Source: Bradyrhizobium sp. BRP22
GTDB lineage: Bacteria; Pseudomonadota; Alphaproteobacteria; Rhizobiales; Xanthobacteraceae
Direction: 5' to 3'
Length of the DNA: 64,000 bases
NCBI RefSeq assembly: GCF_020194175.1
Contig: NZ_JADYVX010000007.1
Coordinates: 1 to 64,000 of the forward strand
Part shown: in pieces, positions 40,844 through 48,294 of the stretch
How the letters are laid out: every line of letters starts with the position of its first letter
How positions within the stretch are numbered: position 1 is the first letter of the stretch
The notes under the pieces: generated by a model
Database searches by the model: none
What the model saw: only the letters and a program-made list of their open reading frames with translations
What the model was told of the DNA's origin: nothing
Translations under genes and position numbers: made by a program

Positions 40844-41240
40844 AGCGGTTTTCCTGAATGGTTAGGCCGCCGGCTCAGCTCGGCTGATGCGCTCGGCGGC
40901 CTGGCGGGCAGTTTCGGGCTGCAACATACTGATTTGCTGTCGCGATGCCAGCCTTTTGCGGCCGGTTCTGCCAGGTTGCTGACAGGTGTGGCGCCGGCCA
41001 CGCCCTGTCAACCACGCGTAAGGTACGGAATCTGCACGAGCTTGACGTCGGGAGGACGAAGCCGCAGACGGGAGGGCGATCCGCCGGCAAACTGGACCTC
41101 CCTGCAGGTGAGATTCAGGGTGAGTCACGTAAGAAGACGTGTAGAAATCAAGTGATTTCAATGGTTTTTGCTGAGATTCTCAACTTGCTGCTCGATCACC
41201 GGAAGTGCCATATGAAGCGGCGTTCGGTGGTGGTGCGTTC
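40844..41240. promoter_or_regulatory. Divergent intergenic region efp / epmA
   Basis: The 397-base region must contain promoters for efp (leftward) and epmA-epmB (rightward). No coding ORF is supported. At 41144-41159 lies a 16-base palindrome GAAATCAAGTGATTTC (7-bp arms), 82 bases before epmA, a candidate operator. GC content falls near 41130-41200, in keeping with a promoter there. Confidence 0.45.
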
Positions 41241-42293
41241 ATGATCGGCGTCGATCGGCCATCGCCCTGGTGGACGCCCTTGCGGCATGCCGACAGACGG
41301 CCGTTTCTTGCGGCGCGCAGCGCGGTGACGAGGGCGGTGCGAACCTGGTTCGAGAAGCGGGGATTTTCGGAGGTCGAGACCGGCGTCCTGCAGATTTCGC
41401 CCGGCAACGAGACCCATCTGCATGCGCCACGCACGGAGCTGACGCGTGCCGATGGCAGCCGCGTGCAGCGCTACCTGCGGACGTCACCCGAGTTTGCCTG
41501 CAAGAAACTGCTGGCCGCGGGTGAAACCAAGATCTTCGAGTTCGCCCGCGTCTTCCGCGACCGCGAGCGCGGTGACCTCCATTTGCCCGAGTTCACCATG
41601 CTGGAATGGTATCGCGCCAATGATGACATCGACGCCATAGTGACCGACACCCTTTTGGTCATCGCCGAGGCAGCGCACGCGACCGGCATCGGGCGATTCT
41701 CGTTCCGCGGCAAGACCGCCGATCCCAATGCGTTGCCTGAAGAGCTGACGGTCGCGTCCGCCTTTGAGCGCTTTGCCGGGATCGATCTGTTGGCCACCAT
41801 CGTTGACGGCGAGGGCGACCGTGGGGCGCTTGCGAATGCAGCCCGGGAACGGGTACGAATCGCCGAGGATGACACCTGGTCGGATATTTTCAGCAAGGTT
41901 CTGGTGGAGCATGTCGAGCCCCATCTCGGACAGGGGCGCCTGACCGTGCTGTCCGACTATCCGATCCCGGAAGCGGCGCTGGCGCGCGCAGATCCGTCCG
42001 ATCCTGATGTCGCCGAGCGGTTCGAGGTCTATGCCTGCGGCGTCGAACTCGCCAACGGATTCGGCGAATTGACCGATGCCGCCGAGCAGCGCCGTCGCTT
42101 CGCCGCGGCCATGGACGAGAAAGAGCGCCGCTACGGCGAGCGCTATCCGCTGGATGAGGACTTCATTGCGGCCGTCGGCGCGATGCCGGAGGCGAGCGGG
42201 GTGGCGCTCGGCTTCGACCGGCTGGTGATGCTGGCAAGCGGGGCGCCAAGGATCGATCAGGTGGTCTGGACGCCGCCAGCAGGAGAGACATGA
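41241..42293 (+). CDS. epmA: EF-P--lysine lysyltransferase EpmA (GenX/PoxA)
   Basis: A 350-residue class II lysyl-tRNA-synthetase-like enzyme without the tRNA anticodon domain; it attaches beta-lysine to EF-P. Class II motifs are present: motif 2 region ARVFRDRERGDLHLPEFTMLEW (cited in part: FRDRERGDLHLPEFTM), ANGFGELTDA, and motif 3 GVALGFDRLVML. Length and lack of the N-terminal OB domain separate it from LysS. The ATG at 41241 is preferred over an in-frame start 36 bases upstream. Its stop overlaps the epmB start (ATGA). Confidence 0.93.
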   Translation: MIGVDRPSPWWTPLRHADRRPFLAARSAVTRAVRTWFEKRGFSEVETGVLQISPGNETHLHAPRTELTRADGSRVQRYLRTSPEFACKKLLAAGETKIFEFARVFRDRERGDLHLPEFTMLEWYRANDDIDAIVTDTLLVIAEAAHATGIGRFSFRGKTADPNALPEELTVASAFERFAGIDLLATIVDGEGDRGALANAARERVRIAEDDTWSDIFSKVLVEHVEPHLGQGRLTVLSDYPIPEAALARADPSDPDVAERFEVYACGVELANGFGELTDAAEQRRRFAAAMDEKERRYGERYPLDEDFIAAVGAMPEASGVALGFDRLVMLASGAPRIDQVVWTPPAGET

Positions 42294-43381
42294 ACCGGAT
42301 CGACCGAAAGCTGACCGCAACGCTACGTCAGCCCGCCGAACTGATCGAGCGCGGCCTGGCGCCAGAGGCGGCGCTTGCCGATCTCGAACAGGTCGCCGCG
42401 CGCTATGCGATCGCGGTGACGCCCGACGTCGCGGCGCTGATCGACCCGGACGATCCGAACGATCCGATCGCGCGGCAGTTCATCCCCGCCGCGGGCGAAC
42501 TTGTCACGCGACCCGGCGAGAACGCCGATCCGATCGGCGATGACGCGCATTCGCCTGTTCCCGGCATTGTGCACCGCTATCCAGACCGGGTGCTGTTCAA
42601 GCTCGTGCATGTCTGCGCGGTCTATTGCCGGTTTTGCTTCCGCCGCGAGATGGTCGGACCGGGCAAGGCGACCGCGCTGTCGGAAGATGCCTATCGCGAT
42701 GCGCTTTCCTATATCCGCTCACGTCCGGAGATCTGGGAGGTGATCCTGACCGGCGGCGATCCATTGATGTTGTCGCCGCGGAGATTGACCGAGATCATGG
42801 CCGACATCGCGGCTATCGATCACGTCAAGATTGTCCGCCTGCACACGCGCGTGCCGGTGGCCGATCCGGCGCGCGTCAGTCCGGAGATGACCCGCGCGCT
42901 GCGCGTGGACGGCACGACGACCTGGATCGCGATCCACGCCAATCATCCGCGCGAACTGACGCCCGAGGCGCGTGCCGCTTGCGCGCGGCTCGCAGATGCC
43001 GGCATTCCCCTGGTGAGCCAGACCGTGCTGCTCAAGGGCGTCAACGATGATGCCGCCACATTGGAGGCCTTGATGCGAGCGTTTGTCGAATGCCGGATCA
43101 AGCCCTACTACCTGCACCACGGCGATCTAGCGCCCGGCACCGCGCATCTGCGCACGAGCATCGAAGCTGGTCAGGAGCTGATGCGGTCGTTGCGGGGCCG
43201 CGTTTCCGGCCTGTGCCAGCCCGATTACGTGCTCGATATTCCGGGCGGCCATGGCAAGGCGCCGATCGGGCCGCGCTATTTGTCGCAGGAGAATCCCAGA
43301 CGACGTGAAGGAACTAACGAAACACGCTATCGTATCGTCGATTATTGCGGTGACGTGCATCTCTATCCACCTAAGGTGTGA
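42290..43381 (+). CDS. epmB: EF-P (R)-beta-lysine 2,3-aminomutase EpmB
   Basis: A 363-residue radical-SAM, PLP-dependent mutase that turns L-lysine into beta-lysine for EF-P modification. The CxxxCxxC iron-sulfur motif is CAVYCRFC (Cys109, 113, 116). The TGGDPLMLS block binds SAM, and the C-terminal GLCQPDYVLDIPGGHGKAP includes PLP-lysine-region features. AGGAGAG precedes the ATG, which overlaps the epmA stop. Shorter than the clostridial lysine 2,3-aminomutases, as usual for EpmB. The enzyme needs a 4Fe-4S cluster, as made by the suf system. Confidence 0.93.
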   Translation: MNRIDRKLTATLRQPAELIERGLAPEAALADLEQVAARYAIAVTPDVAALIDPDDPNDPIARQFIPAAGELVTRPGENADPIGDDAHSPVPGIVHRYPDRVLFKLVHVCAVYCRFCFRREMVGPGKATALSEDAYRDALSYIRSRPEIWEVILTGGDPLMLSPRRLTEIMADIAAIDHVKIVRLHTRVPVADPARVSPEMTRALRVDGTTTWIAIHANHPRELTPEARAACARLADAGIPLVSQTVLLKGVNDDAATLEALMRAFVECRIKPYYLHHGDLAPGTAHLRTSIEAGQELMRSLRGRVSGLCQPDYVLDIPGGHGKAPIGPRYLSQENPRRREGTNETRYRIVDYCGDVHLYPPKV

Positions 43382-43450
43382 TCCGGAGGTGCATCAACAT
43401 CGACGGTGCGGAACCGGTGCGGTAGAGTGTTGAAAGGCAGGAGAATCAGG

Positions 43451-43702
43451 ATGCGGAAAACAATCTTGTCGATGGCACTTGTGACCCTGATCGGTGCGCC
43501 TGCCTTTGCGCAGGGCGGGACTTCGACAGTGCCGAAAAGCAGCCCCGAAGTCAGGCCAATTCCGGAAGCACCGATCGGCCACCGTCAGCCGCGCCGCTCG
43601 GAGGTGCCGAGCGAGAGCAATATCAGCGATCCGAACAATCCCGTGAACAAGGAAGACGCGGCCCTCGATCGCAAGATCAAGAGTATCTGCAGGGGTTGCT
43701 GA
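43451..43702 (+). CDS. Small exported protein of unknown function
   Basis: An 83-residue protein with a clear signal peptide (MRKTILSMALVTLIGAPAFA, about 20 residues). The mature part is polar, Pro/Ser/Asn-rich (VPSESNISDPNNPVNKED) and ends in ICRGC, a pair of cysteines separated by two residues. The ATG at 43451 has AGGAG about 9 bases upstream. No family is recognised. It follows epmB by 69 bases on the same strand, and is convergent with the DAHP synthase gene. Confidence 0.65.
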   Translation: MRKTILSMALVTLIGAPAFAQGGTSTVPKSSPEVRPIPEAPIGHRQPRRSEVPSESNISDPNNPVNKEDAALDRKIKSICRGC

Positions 43703-43750
43703 GCGAGCCGCCGGGCGCCGCGACGCCCAGCGTCACGTATCTGCGAGCGC

Positions 43751-44836
43751 CTAGGCCAACAATTCCCGGACATCGCGGCATTGCTCCTTGCGCCGCCCCT
43801 CGACCGCATCGGCGAGCACATTCAGCGCGGACACTGTCGTGTTCCAGTCGATGCAGCCATCGGTGATGCTCTGCCCGTAGGTGAGCGCGACCCCCGGCAC
43901 CACATCCTGCCGCCCGGCGACCAGGTTGCTCTCGATCATCACGCCCATGATGCGCATCTCGCCGCCGGAAACCTGGCCGGCGATGTCGGCAACGACCAGC
44001 GGCTGGTTTTCCGGCTTCTTGCTGCTGTTGGCGTGGCTGGTGTCGATCATCATGCGCTGATTGACGCCTGAACGCGCCAGCTCGCCTGCGGCGGCATCGA
44101 CGCTCGCCGCATCGTAGTTCGGCGTGCGGCCGCCGCGCAGGATGATGTGGCAATCCTCGTTGCCGCTGGTCGCCGCGATCGCCGAGCGCCCGCCCTTCGT
44201 CACCGCCATGAAATGGTGCGGGTGCGAGGCCGATTTCACCGCGTCGGCGGCGATGCGCACATTGCCGTCGGTGCCGTTCTTGAAGCCGACCGGACAGGAG
44301 AGGCCGGAGGCAAGCTCGCGGTGGATCTGGCTCTCGGTCGTGCGCGCCCCGATCGCGGCCCAGCTGACGAGATCGGCGATATATTGCGGTGTCGTCATGT
44401 CAAGGAATTCGGCGCCGGCCGGCAGGCCGAGATTGTTGACGGCGGACAGCACGCTGCGGGCGAGCCGCAGGCCCTTGTTGATGTCGAAACTGCCGTCAAG
44501 GTTGGGATCGTTGATCAGCCCCTTCCAGCCGACAGTGGTGCGCGGCTTCTCGAAATAGATCCGCATCACGATCTCGAGGCGGTCGGACAGCGTCTCGCGC
44601 AAGGTGGCGAGGCGCTCGGCGTAATCGATGGCCGCTTCGGGATCGTGCACGGAGCAGGGGCCGACGACGACCAGCAGGCGGTCGTCCTTGCCGTTCAGGA
44701 TGGCATGGATGGCGTTGCGCGCCGCCATCACCACTCGCGTCGCCGTCAGGGTGCGCGGGACCTCGCGCATTACCTCTTCGGGCGTACTCAGCTCTTTCAG
44801 TTCTCTAATGCGAAGATCGTCAGTGGTACTCAACAC
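43751..44836 (-). CDS. 3-deoxy-7-phosphoheptulonate (DAHP) synthase, class I
   Basis: A 361-residue class I (AroF/G/H type) DAHP synthase, joining phosphoenolpyruvate and erythrose 4-phosphate in the first step of the shikimate pathway. Motifs: VVVGPCSVHDPEAAIDYA, MRIYFEKPRTTVGWKGL, GARTTESQIHRELASGL, GFKNGTDGN and the metal-binding DTSHANSSK. The GTG at 44836 is chosen because AAAGGAG lies 6 bases upstream; the frame is open further, but those codons overlap an attenuator. Expression is probably set by the aromatic leader peptide and terminator just upstream. Which aromatic acid inhibits the enzyme is not visible. Confidence 0.92.
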   Translation of the reverse strand: MLSTTDDLRIRELKELSTPEEVMREVPRTLTATRVVMAARNAIHAILNGKDDRLLVVVGPCSVHDPEAAIDYAERLATLRETLSDRLEIVMRIYFEKPRTTVGWKGLINDPNLDGSFDINKGLRLARSVLSAVNNLGLPAGAEFLDMTTPQYIADLVSWAAIGARTTESQIHRELASGLSCPVGFKNGTDGNVRIAADAVKSASHPHHFMAVTKGGRSAIAATSGNEDCHIILRGGRTPNYDAASVDAAAGELARSGVNQRMMIDTSHANSSKKPENQPLVVADIAGQVSGGEMRIMGVMIESNLVAGRQDVVPGVALTYGQSITDGCIDWNTTVSALNVLADAVEGRRKEQCRDVRELLA

Positions 44837-44872
44837 GGCGGGCTCCTTTGATTTTTGAACCTGCCGGCCAAC

Positions 44873-44897
44873 AAAAAAGCCGCCAGGTCTGGCGGCT
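44873..44897 (-). terminator. Attenuator terminator upstream of DAHP synthase
   Basis: On the minus strand AGCCGCCA and TGGCGGCT (8 bp) with a 4-base loop are followed by six T; the T-run ends 37 bases before the GTG start. The 5' arm can instead pair with an upstream segment (44945-44953) in the leader ORF, forming an antiterminator. This is the 3:4 hairpin of the attenuator. Confidence 0.85.
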
Positions 44898-44922
44898 GTT
44901 CGGACGTCTTGCTGCAATTTCA

Positions 44923-45003
44923 CTAAATTGAGCGCGATCCTCCCGCCGCCAGCGAGCTGTCGTAGCTAAAGTACCAAAAATAGCTGGTGGCGACGTTGAT
45001 CAT
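44923..45003 (-). CDS. Aromatic leader peptide of DAHP synthase
   Basis: A 26-codon ORF from ATG (45001-45003) to TAG (44923-44925). Codons 7-14 read Ser-Tyr-Phe-Trp-Tyr-Phe-Ser-Tyr, that is six aromatic codons in a run of eight, covering all three aromatic amino acids. Codons 5-7 (GCCACCAGC) can pair with codons 17-20 (GCTGGCGGC) with one mismatch (1:2 hairpin), and the latter can pair over 8 bases with the terminator 5' arm (2:3). A ribosome stalled at codons 8-14 would free segment 2 and allow read-through. Only 7 bases separate the -10 box from the ATG, and no ribosome binding site is seen, so the ORF is probably leaderless. Confidence 0.85.
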   Translation of the reverse strand: MINVATSYFWYFSYDSSLAAGGSRSI

Positions 45004-45010
45004 GGTCCGG

Positions 45011-45039
45011 TCTATAGCGGAACGATTCCGCCTTGTCAC
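45011..45039 (-). promoter_or_regulatory. Promoter of the DAHP synthase leader
   Basis: On the minus strand GTGACA (45034-45039) and TATAGA (45011-45016) are spaced by exactly 17 bases, close to the TTGACA-17-TATAAT consensus. Transcription is expected to begin about 7 bases on, at or next to the A of the leader ATG at 45003. Confidence 0.7.
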
Positions 45040-45047
45040 CTCCAAAG

Positions 45048-45143
45048 ATTCGGTTCTGATTCAATCCTAACCGAATCTTCAGTTCTTGTTTTGACGCGTT
45101 TTCGTCACGCGAACCGGTATCCACTTCGCTCGAAACCGCTCTA
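45048..45143. repeat. TTCGGTTCTGATT palindrome family, copy B (full length)
   Basis: The left palindrome (GATTCGGTTCTGATTCAATC, then CTAACCGAATC) is less perfect than in copy A, with a TC in place of AG. The right half (TTCACGCGAACCGGTATCC-like, then ACTTCGCTCGAAACCGCTCTA) is well kept. It fills the gap between the leader promoter and the stop codon of the HdeD-like gene, two bases away. Confidence 0.75.
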
Positions 45144-45145
45144 AA

Positions 45146-45724
45146 TCACGGGTCGGTGCTGTGCGCGGCGAGCGCGATGCCGATCAGCGTGGCTCCGCCG
45201 AACAGGAGATTGAGCCCGACCAGCAGGCCAAGCGCCCATTCCGCCGAGCCGGGCAGGCCCGCGATGATGATGAAGGCGATCAGGATGTCCATCAGCCCCG
45301 CGATCAACAGCCACGACCAGCGTCCGGTCAATTCGCGCCGATGCTCCAGCGCGTACATGATGGTGGCGACACCCTCGGCGACGAAATAGGCGCCGACCAC
45401 GATGGTCAGCGTCAGCACCCCCTGCATCGGCCGGGCCAGCAACAGCAGACCGGCGAGCACGGCGAGCGCCGCCGAGATCAGCGACCACCAGAAGCCCGGC
45501 ATCTCGCGCGCCCAGTAGGTGACGATCAGTCCGCCGATGCCGGAGATCAGGAATAGCCAGCCGAGGAAGATGGTCACCGCGAGGCTGGCGAAGGTCGGAA
45601 CGATCATCGCGGCGAGGCCCAGAACCGCGAGCAGGATGCCCTCGAACAGGAAGGCCTTCCAATGCGCCTTCACGGCGGCGTTCACTTCGGACTGAAGTTT
45701 GTCGAGATTGTCTGGAAGGGTCAT
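45146..45724 (-). CDS. HdeD/DUF308 family membrane protein
   Basis: A 192-residue inner membrane protein with six predicted helices (GILLAVLGLAAMIVP, IFLGWLFLISGIGGLIV, ALAVLAGLLLL and others). The repeated two-helix pattern with FLGWLFLISGI and GAYFVAEGV fits the DUF308/HdeD group, linked in E. coli to acid resistance at high cell density; the role in rhizobia is unknown. The ATG at 45724 has GGAGAG upstream. The stop lies two bases from a palindromic repeat. Confidence 0.85.
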   Translation of the reverse strand: MTLPDNLDKLQSEVNAAVKAHWKAFLFEGILLAVLGLAAMIVPTFASLAVTIFLGWLFLISGIGGLIVTYWAREMPGFWWSLISAALAVLAGLLLLARPMQGVLTLTIVVGAYFVAEGVATIMYALEHRRELTGRWSWLLIAGLMDILIAFIIIAGLPGSAEWALGLLVGLNLLFGGATLIGIALAAHSTDP

Positions 45725-45761
45725 CGCAGCTCTCCGGGCAGGCACGTGATTGCACGCAATC

Positions 45762-45792
45762 CTAGAGCATATTCGGTTCTGACTATATCAGA
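45762..45792. repeat. TTCGGTTCTGATT family, fragment C
   Basis: Only the left part of the element is present: CTAGAGCATATTCGGTTCTGACTATATCAGAT. It lies just before the TAA of the PrsW-like gene on the minus strand (stop 45793-45795). Confidence 0.6.
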
Positions 45793-46830
45793 TTAGCCCG
45801 GTCCCGGCGCCGACGAAAAGCCCTCCGATGTCGTGCGAATTCGATTTCGCCCGAAGATGTAGATCGCGGTGGTCGCGATCAGCAGTGCGATGCCGACCAC
45901 GATCGAAATCGCCGCGACCGGGACCAGGATCGCCGCCGGATTGTGCTCGGGATTGATCAGCCAGCGACGGAACGAGGTGAGCACGAAGGCGAGCCCCAGA
46001 AAGCTGGCGCCGCCGCCGAGGACGAAGACGGCCCACATCCGCCGCAACTGGCTCAGCCGTTCGCGCGCGAGCGCGGTGCGCGGGGCATGATGGCGGCCGA
46101 CCCGGTAGACCAGGCGGATGGCGAAGCCGATCGAGCTGAACCCGATCAGGACGCTTGCCGAGCCCAGGATCATCCGGAGCGTGGAGCCGAGATCGCCGCC
46201 GCGCTGCAGCGTCAGGAGCGGGAAGTCGAACGCGGCATGCAGCAGGACCGGGGCGAGCAGCACCATGGCCCAGCTCGAGAACCGCGCCCAGGCGCGGTTC
46301 TTTCGGTGTGCGCCGAGCGCGGTGCCGGAGCGCGCGATTGCGACATAGGCGCCGGCGATGATGCCGAGCGCACCGTGAAACGGTACGGTGAGCACGCTGC
46401 GCAGCACGGCGAGCGCGCGCCACATCTCGGCATGCTGGACGAGGTAGGCGAGGTTCTCGTAAGCGGCGAAACCGAGCCCCGCGGCCGCGCCATAGACCAC
46501 CGGGTCCATCGGGTCGGCGGAGGCCCGGCGCCGCGACGACACCGCGATGATCACCGCGATCTTCACGATCTCCTCGGGGACCGCGACGCCGAACAGCGAG
46601 CGCAGCGCCAGCGTCATCCAGGGGTTTTCCGGTATCGCCAGCAATGCATTGAACGGCGCGCGCACCAGCCCGAGCAGCGAGATGCTGGCCGCGCCGAGAA
46701 TGAAAGCGAGCCAGACCTGCGCCGGCGGACCCGGGCGTTCATCGGCGGCGATGACGAGCCAGAGCATCAGAAGCGCCGGCGCAATGGCGGCGGCACCGAT
46801 GACGGTTGGGAGCGACTCGAGCAACAGCAT
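45793..46830 (-). CDS. PrsW-like intramembrane metalloprotease family protein
   Basis: A protein of about 345 residues with eight or more hydrophobic helices. The PrsW signature motifs are seen: VPEEIVKIAV (the EE pair), GLGFAAYENLAYL (E-N), FHGALGIIAGAY, and LLHAAFDFPLL (H-x-x-x-D). In Bacillus PrsW cuts an anti-sigma factor, but no sigma/anti-sigma pair is nearby. The start at 46830 gives MLLLESLPTVIG; a longer in-frame ATG at 46890 is possible, and neither has a clear ribosome site. The C-terminal 120 residues add three helices beyond the protease core. Confidence 0.75.
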   Translation of the reverse strand: MLLLESLPTVIGAAAIAPALLMLWLVIAADERPGPPAQVWLAFILGAASISLLGLVRAPFNALLAIPENPWMTLALRSLFGVAVPEEIVKIAVIIAVSSRRRASADPMDPVVYGAAAGLGFAAYENLAYLVQHAEMWRALAVLRSVLTVPFHGALGIIAGAYVAIARSGTALGAHRKNRAWARFSSWAMVLLAPVLLHAAFDFPLLTLQRGGDLGSTLRMILGSASVLIGFSSIGFAIRLVYRVGRHHAPRTALARERLSQLRRMWAVFVLGGGASFLGLAFVLTSFRRWLINPEHNPAAILVPVAAISIVVGIALLIATTAIYIFGRNRIRTTSEGFSSAPGPG

Positions 46831-47061
46831 CTGCAGGCAATCAAACCAGGTACGAATGAGGAAAATGGCCGCAAAGCCGGCCCTTGGCAAGGCAACGTAA
46901 CCGCTTTGCGAAGAGTTCGGCGCGCCGCATTCACGGCTTTTTGTCGCATTGCAGCGCCCGCCATTCTCGGCGTCGTCGGGCCCCGGGGTCCAGCGGCCCT
47001 AGGATGGTTAGAGCGAAAGCGCGCCCGCAATGACGGAGAGTGAGGAGTCCGTGGTGCGCGT

Positions 47062-48294
47062 TCACCGCAGCAGCAAGCGCCGGCAGGTCTCGACGAACAC
47101 CTTTGCTCCCGTGACGATGTCGGCGTCGTCGGTGTTCTCGCTCCAGTGATGGCTGATGCCGCCGATCGAGGGGACGAACAGCATGCCTGATGGCATGATG
47201 GTGGCCAGCATCTGGGCGTCATGGCCGGCGCCGCTTGGCATCCGGATCGACTTGCCGTCGGCAACGCGCGCGCTCGCAGCTTCGATCGCCTCCTGGAACG
47301 CGGCATCCATCATCGCCGGCGCGCCGGTGCGGATGCGCTCGACCTCGACGCTGCAGCGGCCTCCCGCGGTGACCTCTGCTGCCATGCGGCGCAGATGCGC
47401 CTCCAGGCGTTCGATCACGCTCACATCGTCGTCGCGCATCTGGAACAGCATTTCGGCGCGGCCCGGAATGATGCTGGGCGCGCCGGGGTCGAGTGTGATG
47501 CGGCCGGTGGTCCATACCGTGCGCGGGCCGCACAGGGCAGGGAAGCTGTCATCGATCGCGACGCAGAATTTGGCGAGCGCAAGCCCGGCATCGCGGCGGA
47601 TCGCCATCCGCGTGGTGCCGGCATGGTTCTGCTCCCCGGTGAACGTGATGCGATACTGCCAGATGCCGACGATGGAGGTGACGACCCCGATCTTGAGGCC
47701 GCTGTCTTCGAGCGTCCTGCCTTGCTCGATATGGGCTTCGAGATATCCGATGTGCCGCCCGCGTTCGGCGGTGACGCGCGGACGGCCCGCAAGGCCGACG
47801 CTCTCGAGCGCTTCGCGCATAGGACGGCCGTTGCTGCGGTCGCGCGCGGCATCGATCTCCGCCTCCGTCAAGGCGCCGACATAGGAGCGGCTGCCGAGGA
47901 AATGGCCGAAATGTCCTTCCTCATCGCACCAGGCGGCAACCTCGACGGCACCGTTGATGTTCGCGTTGGGATTGATGACGCGGGCGGCCTCGAGTGCGTA
48001 GACGACGCCGAGCGGTCCATCGAGCCACCCTGCGAAATTCTGACTTTCGAGATGCGAGCCCGCCAGAAGTTTCGGGCCAGGCTTTGCGCTGGTGCCGAGA
48101 ATGTTGCCGATGCCGTCGATCGTGGGGGCGAGGCCGGCTGCCGGGAGCCTGGCGGCAAGCCACTCAATCGAGCGCATATGCGGTTCCGAAAACGTCGGCT
48201 TGTGCACGCCCGTCTTGTAGGCGCCGATGGCGCGGAGCGCATTGAGATCGGCGAGCACGCGTGCGCCGTCGACGGCGAGATTTGGATCAGGCAT
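47062..48294 (-). CDS. M20-family amidohydrolase (hydantoinase/carbamoylase type)
   Basis: A 410-residue zinc or manganese amidase related to N-carbamoyl-L-amino-acid hydrolases, ureidoglycolate amidohydrolase and allantoate amidohydrolases. Metal-site motifs: LLAGSHLESQNFAGWLDGPLGV (cited to 22 in family; here GSHLESQNFAGWLDG), CDEEGHFGHFLGS, YLEAHIEQGRTLE and the C-terminal GISHHWSENTD. The usual acidic SHLDTV/GG Asp is replaced by Glu-Ser at one point (HLESQ). The start at 48294 (MPDPNLAVDG) is the family start. A role in purine or hydantoin breakdown is possible. Confidence 0.82.
   Translation of the reverse strand: MPDPNLAVDGARVLADLNALRAIGAYKTGVHKPTFSEPHMRSIEWLAARLPAAGLAPTIDGIGNILGTSAKPGPKLLAGSHLESQNFAGWLDGPLGVVYALEAARVINPNANINGAVEVAAWCDEEGHFGHFLGSRSYVGALTEAEIDAARDRSNGRPMREALESVGLAGRPRVTAERGRHIGYLEAHIEQGRTLEDSGLKIGVVTSIVGIWQYRITFTGEQNHAGTTRMAIRRDAGLALAKFCVAIDDSFPALCGPRTVWTTGRITLDPGAPSIIPGRAEMLFQMRDDDVSVIERLEAHLRRMAAEVTAGGRCSVEVERIRTGAPAMMDAAFQEAIEAASARVADGKSIRMPSGAGHDAQMLATIMPSGMLFVPSIGGISHHWSENTDDADIVTGAKVFVETCRRLLLR

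Follow-up and report, generated by a model that had tools for sequence, protein, structure and literature searches.

In the window analysed here, the whole 64,000-nucleotide stretch of DNA from Bradyrhizobium sp. BRP22, the type I DAHP synthase gene is preceded by a conserved leader region that very probably acts on it as a ribosome-mediated transcription attenuator; we assign this reading a probability of roughly 0.9. As part of the same reading, the attenuator would sense the charging of tRNA-Phe and tRNA-Tyr and, in most species, of tRNA-Trp as well. An earlier note, made from the letters of the window, had proposed classical ribosome-dependent attenuator logic at this place. That proposal proves right in essence: leader, terminator and antiterminator core are all conserved.

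All elements of the locus lie on the minus strand, in the order HdeD-like gene, promoter-like pair, leader ORF, intrinsic terminator and type I DAHP synthase gene. The HdeD-like gene (45745-45146; 70 bits, below the cutoff of 189) is followed by a -35-like GTGACA (45039-45034), a consensus match read directly in the sequence, and by a -10-like CTATAG (45017-45012) that ends 8 nt before the leader ATG. The leader ORF, MINVATSYFWYFSYDSSLAAGGSRSI, occupies 45003-44923 (26 codons and a TAG stop) and is probably leaderless; six of its codons 8-14 (44982-44962; Y F W Y F S Y), the putative regulatory codons, are aromatic. Segment 1 (44994-44983), a possible protector partner of segment 2, can pair in two registers. 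Segment 2 (44952-44935) has its core at 44952-44945, within the ORF at codons 18-20, and a weaker predicted extension to 44935. Segment 3 (44906-44889) comprises the 5′ arm of the terminator (44897-44890) and upstream bases that extend the 2:3 helix, while segment 4 (44885-44878) is the terminator 3′ arm, which pairs with 44897-44890; with the U-run (44878-44873), the whole terminator spans 44897-44873. A Shine-Dalgarno-like AAGGAG, likewise read directly (44848-44843), precedes the DAHP synthase gene (44836-43751; GTG start, 361 aa). The gene matches TIGR00034 (aroFGH) with 521.3 bits against a cutoff of 173.2, which confirms the earlier naming of the downstream gene, and its closest named relatives are from Bradyrhizobium (94-95% identity). 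A single copy was found in its own genome, where one type II DAHP synthase gene was found as well. The earlier description of a 26-codon leader with six aromatics in codons 8-14 could be read off directly at 45003-44923, and the coordinates and pairings given with it are correct apart from one A.C mismatch in the 1:2 helix.

The surroundings of the locus yielded some observations of their own. Just upstream of the promoter-like pair, positions 45060-45150 form a dispersed repeat, present at at least 40 places in the same genome, itself included; these best 40 of 160 candidates all have at least 88% identity. Convergent with the DAHP synthase gene is a pair of plus-strand genes (41205-43381, with a 4-base overlap) encoding an EpmA-like EF-P lysine aminoacylase and a KamA-like aminomutase; the latter scores above cutoff with TIGR03822, and the EpmB model stays below its own cutoff. 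A riboswitch, a T-box or another described RNA family was also considered and set aside, the Rfam search of 42000-48000 having returned no family over threshold and a sole sub-threshold match, to RNAI (24.7 bits against 47).

Among 180 loci with a type I DAHP synthase gene (80 from named records and 100 from genomes, the window's own included), 178 have the leader ORF, and the positives carry 13 family labels. A script found 177 of these leaders, and one more (L164), whose locus has an altered GPCS motif, was recognized by eye; of the two loci without a counted leader, L170 starts inside the terminator at a contig end and L176 is eroded. These loci are partly non-independent, many being close relatives or apparently one genome twice, and the 177 scripted leaders fall into 122 different ORFs, or 151 different sequences when leader and terminator are taken together. 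As the terminator and the antiterminator core are kept too, the comparison with relatives that had been suggested as a check came out in favour of the attenuator. At L176 a degraded leader (ARFYPRS) with two aromatic codons left stands beside a DAHP synthase gene whose reading frame contains a TGA, and gene and leader may be decaying together. Another locus (L054), from a record titled Frankia sp. RB7, has a Bradyrhizobium-type gene and leader and is probably mislabelled.

Such conservation bears directly on the most sceptical reading, in which the hairpin is an ordinary terminator of the upstream gene and the aromatic ORF arose by chance. GC-rich hairpins are common and one single-sequence 2:3 match is not rare, but the leader recurs at nearly every locus (178/180), a promoter-like pair lies between the upstream gene and the leader, and type II genes have no such ORF (0/28). 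Moreover, six aromatics in eight codons occurred in 0 of 3000 dinucleotide shuffles of the 470-nt upstream region (ATG ORFs of 15-34 codons), and five in 4 of 3000 shuffles of the same region. We consider a chance origin exceedingly improbable. Folding of the 167-nt leader gave z = -2.69.

The composition of the leaders points to the amino acids that the attenuator would sense. Both Phe and Tyr occur in all 177 scripted leaders and Trp in 169, with means per leader of 2.29 Phe, 2.69 Tyr and 0.96 Trp; the eight Trp-free leaders are L166, L168, L172, L173, L174, L175, L177 and L178. Of the Tyr, Phe and Trp codons that the earlier note read as a joint sensor, those for Phe and Tyr are therefore constant, but Trp is optional. 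The best eight codons contain six aromatics in 116 leaders, five in 46, seven in 8 and four in 7, and there are 55 distinct densest 8-mers among the 177 leaders, in which F, Y and W swap for one another. Because the class of residue is kept while its order is fairly free, a readout of tRNA charging fits better than a fixed arrest sequence.

The same data weigh on the rival idea of a nascent-chain arrest peptide, with which free aromatic amino acids or another ligand, not tRNA charging, would stall the ribosome. TnaC is an arrest peptide of this kind, stalling the ribosome in response to a ligand. The motif WYFSY does recur in many leaders, and several codons near it are almost invariant in Bradyrhizobium-type leaders. 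However, it is composition that is kept and not order, as in YYFGFFGY, YFFYYFSY, RFYRFYGY, YASRFYSY and TYFALAYF; furthermore, shortage of the ligand would have to cause stalling for such a device to make metabolic sense. We rate an arrest peptide as very improbable, and continue with a tRNA-charging attenuator.

Codon choice within the leaders shows a strong bias of its own. Phe is encoded by TTT in 336 of 405 leader codons (83%), compared with 38 of 936 (4%) in the genes behind the leaders, whose codons were counted from the GPCS motif onward; in the diverse set of 38 leaders, TTT accounts for 72 of 102 Phe codons. The Tyr codon TAT is without such a difference (229/477 in leaders and 400/890 in the downstream genes). 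In bacteria, a single tRNA generally decodes both Phe codons. A theory that, in the available passages of its source, ascribes codon bias in attenuators to selective charging of isoacceptors (PMC1183508) would thus not apply to the TTT bias. Slow wobble decoding, an unstructured stall zone and polymerase pausing are our guesses at its origin.

Conservation, together with a few compensatory changes, supports the predicted 3:4 and 2:3 helices. The terminator helix of 8 pairs (44897-44890 and 44885-44878) closes a 4-nt loop and runs into the U-run, in agreement with the earlier description of a 3:4 hairpin followed by T residues, and hairpin arms before a U-run are found in 151 of 151 distinct sequences. 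An alignment of 38 of the 177 sequences, chosen at less than 88% identity (A1), has 97.0% of 3:4 cells paired and 8 doubly changed cells, each matched by 0 of 500 shuffles; stricter counts are no better than shuffles (2 doubly changed pairs, 121/500; 6 pair types, 118/500). Segment 2 (44952-44945) pairs with 44896-44889 over a perfect 8 bp in this leader. Across A1, 85.4% of 2:3 cells are paired (0/500 shuffles) and 4 are doubly changed (5/500), and again the stricter counts do not exceed shuffles (2 doubly changed pairs, 82/500; 4 pair types, 500/500); all these comparisons are to be read with the caution that related sequences without structure can still beat such shuffles. Since the outermost C-G pair of this window's 2:3 helix is unpaired in 28 of 38 sequences, the class-wide core is GGCGG with CCGCC. 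The 2:3 helix of the earlier note thus stands here with its 8 perfect pairs, but that length is special to the lineage and the class-wide core has 5 bp.

Two pairs of loci carry matched changes in this core. In L166 and L169, segment 2 has changed from GGCGG to AGCGG together with segment 3 from CCGCC to CCGCT, and in L123 and L124 segment 2 has changed from GGCGG to GGCAG together with segment 3 from CCGCC to CTGCC. Because segment 4 is unchanged in all four, the paired changes follow 2:3 and not 3:4. Partner swaps among the 38 sequences point the same way when segment 3 is taken with its 12-nt extension, the own partner binding more strongly in 28 of 38 (p = 0.00026); the segment 3 arm alone gives no significant result (22/38, p = 0.06). 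The own partner is better in 38 of 38 for 3:4, and in 20 of 38 for the negative control 2:4 (p = 0.89). Ranked against shuffled strands, the own 2:3 helix falls within the lowest 5% in 23 of 38 sequences and the own 1:2 helix in 11 of 38. A single-sequence test of 2:3 at 147 loci, whose terminator finder missed 20 of 167 loci through its loop and tail limits, found that a mean of 7.5% of shuffles do as well (1/50 for this leader). As a single-sequence 2:3 match in such GC-rich DNA is only modestly unusual, the weight of the argument rests on conservation.

The putative 1:2 protector is weakly supported. In this leader 44991-44983 can pair with 44953-44945 at 8 of 9 positions, so the 1:2 hairpin claimed earlier does exist on paper, but it contains the A.C mismatch and is the weakest part across relatives. 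With fixed columns, 59% of 1:2 cells are paired, 45 of 500 shuffles are as good and a slide of +3 is equally good; a register-free partner swap favours the own partner in 27 of 38 (p = 0.008). The minimum-energy full-length fold of this leader contains 1:2 and 3:4, the former in another register (44994-44988 with 44951-44945, 7 pairs).

Put together, these parts suggest the following mechanism. Transcription would begin on the leader AUG or right beside it, and translation of the leader would proceed without a Shine-Dalgarno sequence. With aromatic tRNAs charged, the ribosome would clear codons 8-14 and move onto segment 2 (codons 18-20); segment 3, then free, would pair with segment 4, and transcription would terminate near 44873 to give a leader RNA of about 131 nt. 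With aromatic tRNAs short, the ribosome would stall on codons 8-14 and leave segment 2 exposed; a 2:3 helix would then form ahead of the synthesis of segment 4, and transcription would read through into the DAHP synthase gene. Within this scheme the start site is our inference, as are the actual stopping or readthrough of transcription and the effect of each amino acid.

The geometry of the leaders agrees with such a switch. A short motif search places the segment 2 core within the leader ORF in 177 of 177 cases, and in the commonest layout it lies 11 nt past the last aromatic codon (123/151) and 20 nt before the stop (134/151). Since segment 2 is part of the ORF, it would stay free while a ribosome is held at the aromatic codons and be covered once that ribosome advances. 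We folded transcripts up to the terminator loop under an assumed ribosome mask of 28 nt, and the modelled state of segment 3 depends on ribosome position. For this leader, the probability that segment 3 is sequestered is 0.87 with the A site at codons 8-12, 0.77 at codon 13 and 0.85 at codon 14, and it falls to 0.08-0.09 once the ribosome sits over segment 2, at codons 18-20. For the 38 diverse sequences, the average is 0.71 at the first aromatic codons and 0.20 at the lowest point after clearing, against 0.55 and 0.41 for nulls encoding the same peptides. The drop is larger than the average of eight nulls in every one of the 38 sequences, and larger than that of each single null in 21 of 38. 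There are species in which a ribosome on the last aromatic codons is over segment 2 already.

The model also has its limits. Among the 151 sequences, a ribosome before the aromatic codons gives 0.75 and one on them 0.73, any place before segment 2 being equivalent, while the mean is 0.58 with no ribosome and 0.44 with a ribosome at the stop codon; the aromatic position exceeds the former in 112 of 151 and the latter in 129 of 151. For this leader the ribosome-free value is already 0.86, and 2:3 may re-form with the ribosome at the stop codon (0.66). The main off-switch is therefore probably the movement of the ribosome onto segment 2. Ribosome-free sequestration ranges from 0.02 to 0.89 over the diverse set and is high here although the full-length fold contains 1:2, which argues that 1:2 is not part of the conserved core and that timing matters.

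At 166 of 177 loci, 7-9 nt separate the leader ATG from the end of a GTGACA/CTATAT-like pair spaced by 16 nt, a figure for which the choice among several in-frame ATGs was helped by promoter score. Without promoter-guided choice, the geometry fits 140 of 167 loci, and at a further 19 of 167 the pair is 14 nt away, as expected for another AUG 6 nt upstream. The pair in the window (45039-45012), which the earlier note does not mention, is absent from the output of a stricter promoter scan. Shine-Dalgarno-like 4-mers precede 9 of 177 leader starts, compared with 114 of 177 DAHP synthase starts. The promoter-like pair would put the start of transcription at or next to the leader AUG, and this spacing together with the missing Shine-Dalgarno suggests a leaderless start. 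As far as sequence alone can tell, the putative promoter lies before the leader and would not start transcription downstream of it, an arrangement that the earlier note had named as contrary to an attenuator. Precedents are known from rhizobia: transcription of rnTrpL in S. meliloti starts at the AUG, according to the available parts of one report (PMC10117765), and start-site mapping in B. japonicum placed 192 starts exactly at start codons, according to those of another (PMC4842269).

The element is tied closely to one isoenzyme. In the window's own genome, a covariance model of the element (R1) found one strong site (E 2.2e-25), the next reaching E 0.03, among the best 150 of 5462 candidates; a weak full-length match there (C131, L185; E 0.1) has no aromatic small ORF. 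At least 69 of 150 genomes of the order contain a match at E up to 0.01 (stricter filters, best 22 candidates per genome). Among the matches listed, all 16 at E < 1e-14 precede type I DAHP synthase genes, and most weaker matches in the order cover just the 3′ part of the model. The type I enzyme itself is patchy, being found in at least 44 of 296 genomes of the family (E up to 1e-3), at least 59 of 397 of the order (E up to 1e-100) and at least 14 of 385 of the class (E up to 1e-60), in genome sets that overlap and with few best candidates scored per genome. The type II enzyme was found in 55 of 61 genomes, including all seven known type I carriers among them (G000, G024, G300, G310, G318, G344 and G350). 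At type II loci, no ATG ORF with at least four aromatics in eight codons was seen (0/28; the best 30 minus L260 and L269), and the type II gene of the window's own genome has no aromatic leader, with at most 3 aromatics in 8 codons. Thus, in the genomes seen, it is the second isoenzyme that carries the switch.

This linkage is also what tells against a reading in which the main product is the terminated RNA, the peptide or both, acting in trans, with control of the downstream gene secondary. The layout is that of rnTrpL, a leaderless ORF combined with an attenuator in the available text of the reports on it (PMC10117765, PMC7298713), and codons 21-26 of Bradyrhizobium-type leaders are also highly conserved. 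Nevertheless, the element keeps to a single gene: the strongest R1 matches listed from the 150 genomes, 16 in number, all stand before type I genes. We find a primarily trans-acting role slightly harder to credit even than an arrest peptide, and keep control of the adjacent gene as the preferred reading.

A separate aromatic leader was noticed elsewhere. At L202:1498-1660 and L216-L245 (family f41 of the order), a short ATG ORF stands before a tyrS copy (TIGR00234) and contains three to four aromatic codons in a row, most of them for Tyr (YFYY, VYYY, VYYF). At least four aromatics in 8 codons are present at 25 of 29 loci and VYYY at the other 4 (L220 left out), and a GCCGC...GGCGGCTTTT hairpin occurs at 21 of 29. 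Most of the genomes concerned carry a second tyrS. By its sequence, the element resembles an attenuator that would let Tyr control a gene for tyrosyl-tRNA synthetase.

These findings point to a candidate switch at the first step of aromatic synthesis, in Bradyrhizobium as in other Alphaproteobacteria, placed on the patchy type I enzyme and not on the more widespread type II enzyme. An attenuator of this kind should give rise to a short terminated RNA and to a peptide of 23-28 residues, and the leaders are a natural data set on multi-amino-acid sensing by attenuators and on synonymous codon preference. A broader and rather doubtful conjecture is that an old cassette of the class has been kept with an accessory type I enzyme as a pooled sensor of aromatic tRNA charging, that the released leaderless mRNA of about 130 nt or its peptide also acts in trans, and that the TTT preference is a second, codon-level principle of tuning. 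If this were true, the preference would mark tuning through slow wobble decoding or polymerase pausing.

The E. coli attenuators pheL-pheA and trpL-trp respond to one amino acid each, have a Shine-Dalgarno site and place segment 2 at or after the stop codon. In the leaders described here, by contrast, the ORF itself contains the segment 2 core, in most cases with 20 nt left to the stop (134/151). The classical 1:2/2:3/3:4 logic is the same, going by the available passages of a review (PMC11802643). In a full-text literature search, a description of this leader in Alphaproteobacteria was not found among the matches listed; Vitreschak et al. (2004) could already list it. Attenuation on DAHP synthase as such is already known or proposed in Corynebacterium and Acholeplasma. 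The aroR-aroF system of C. glutamicum, in the portions available of two sources, similarly has an aromatic leader before a DAHP synthase gene and regulates it by ribosome-stalling attenuation with a Phe-Tyr-Phe leader peptide (PMC11802643, PMC4046766). However, it belongs to an actinobacterium and, in the review's available text, responds to limitation for Phe and not Tyr, and its Phe-Tyr-Phe compares with at least five aromatics in eight codons, usually with Trp, in 170 of 177 leaders here. The uORFC-13-1 motif before Acholeplasma aroF likewise combines a predicted uORF with an adjacent terminator before DAHP synthase and was suggested to be a Phe sensor; attenuation had earlier been proposed for E. 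coli aroF too, as the available part of that report notes (PMC8632094). By its description there, which is what the leader was compared with, uORFC-13-1 differs in having a ribosome binding site and a U-run that encodes at least one Phe, and it is restricted to 24 sequences from Acholeplasma and environmental samples. Closest in setting are the rhizobial trpL/rnTrpL leaders of S. meliloti and B. japonicum (peTrpL), alphaproteobacterial leaderless ORFs with regulatory codons in an attenuator; in the text available (PMC10117765, PMC7298713), these have Trp codons only and stand before trpE(G), and B. japonicum peTrpL, with two Trp, has no resemblance by eye to the leader here. Set against these systems, the features particular to the type I DAHP synthase leader are its probable leaderless start, the predicted joint sensing of Phe and Tyr, usually with Trp, the in-frame segment 2, the TTT bias and the near-perfect linkage to one isoenzyme.
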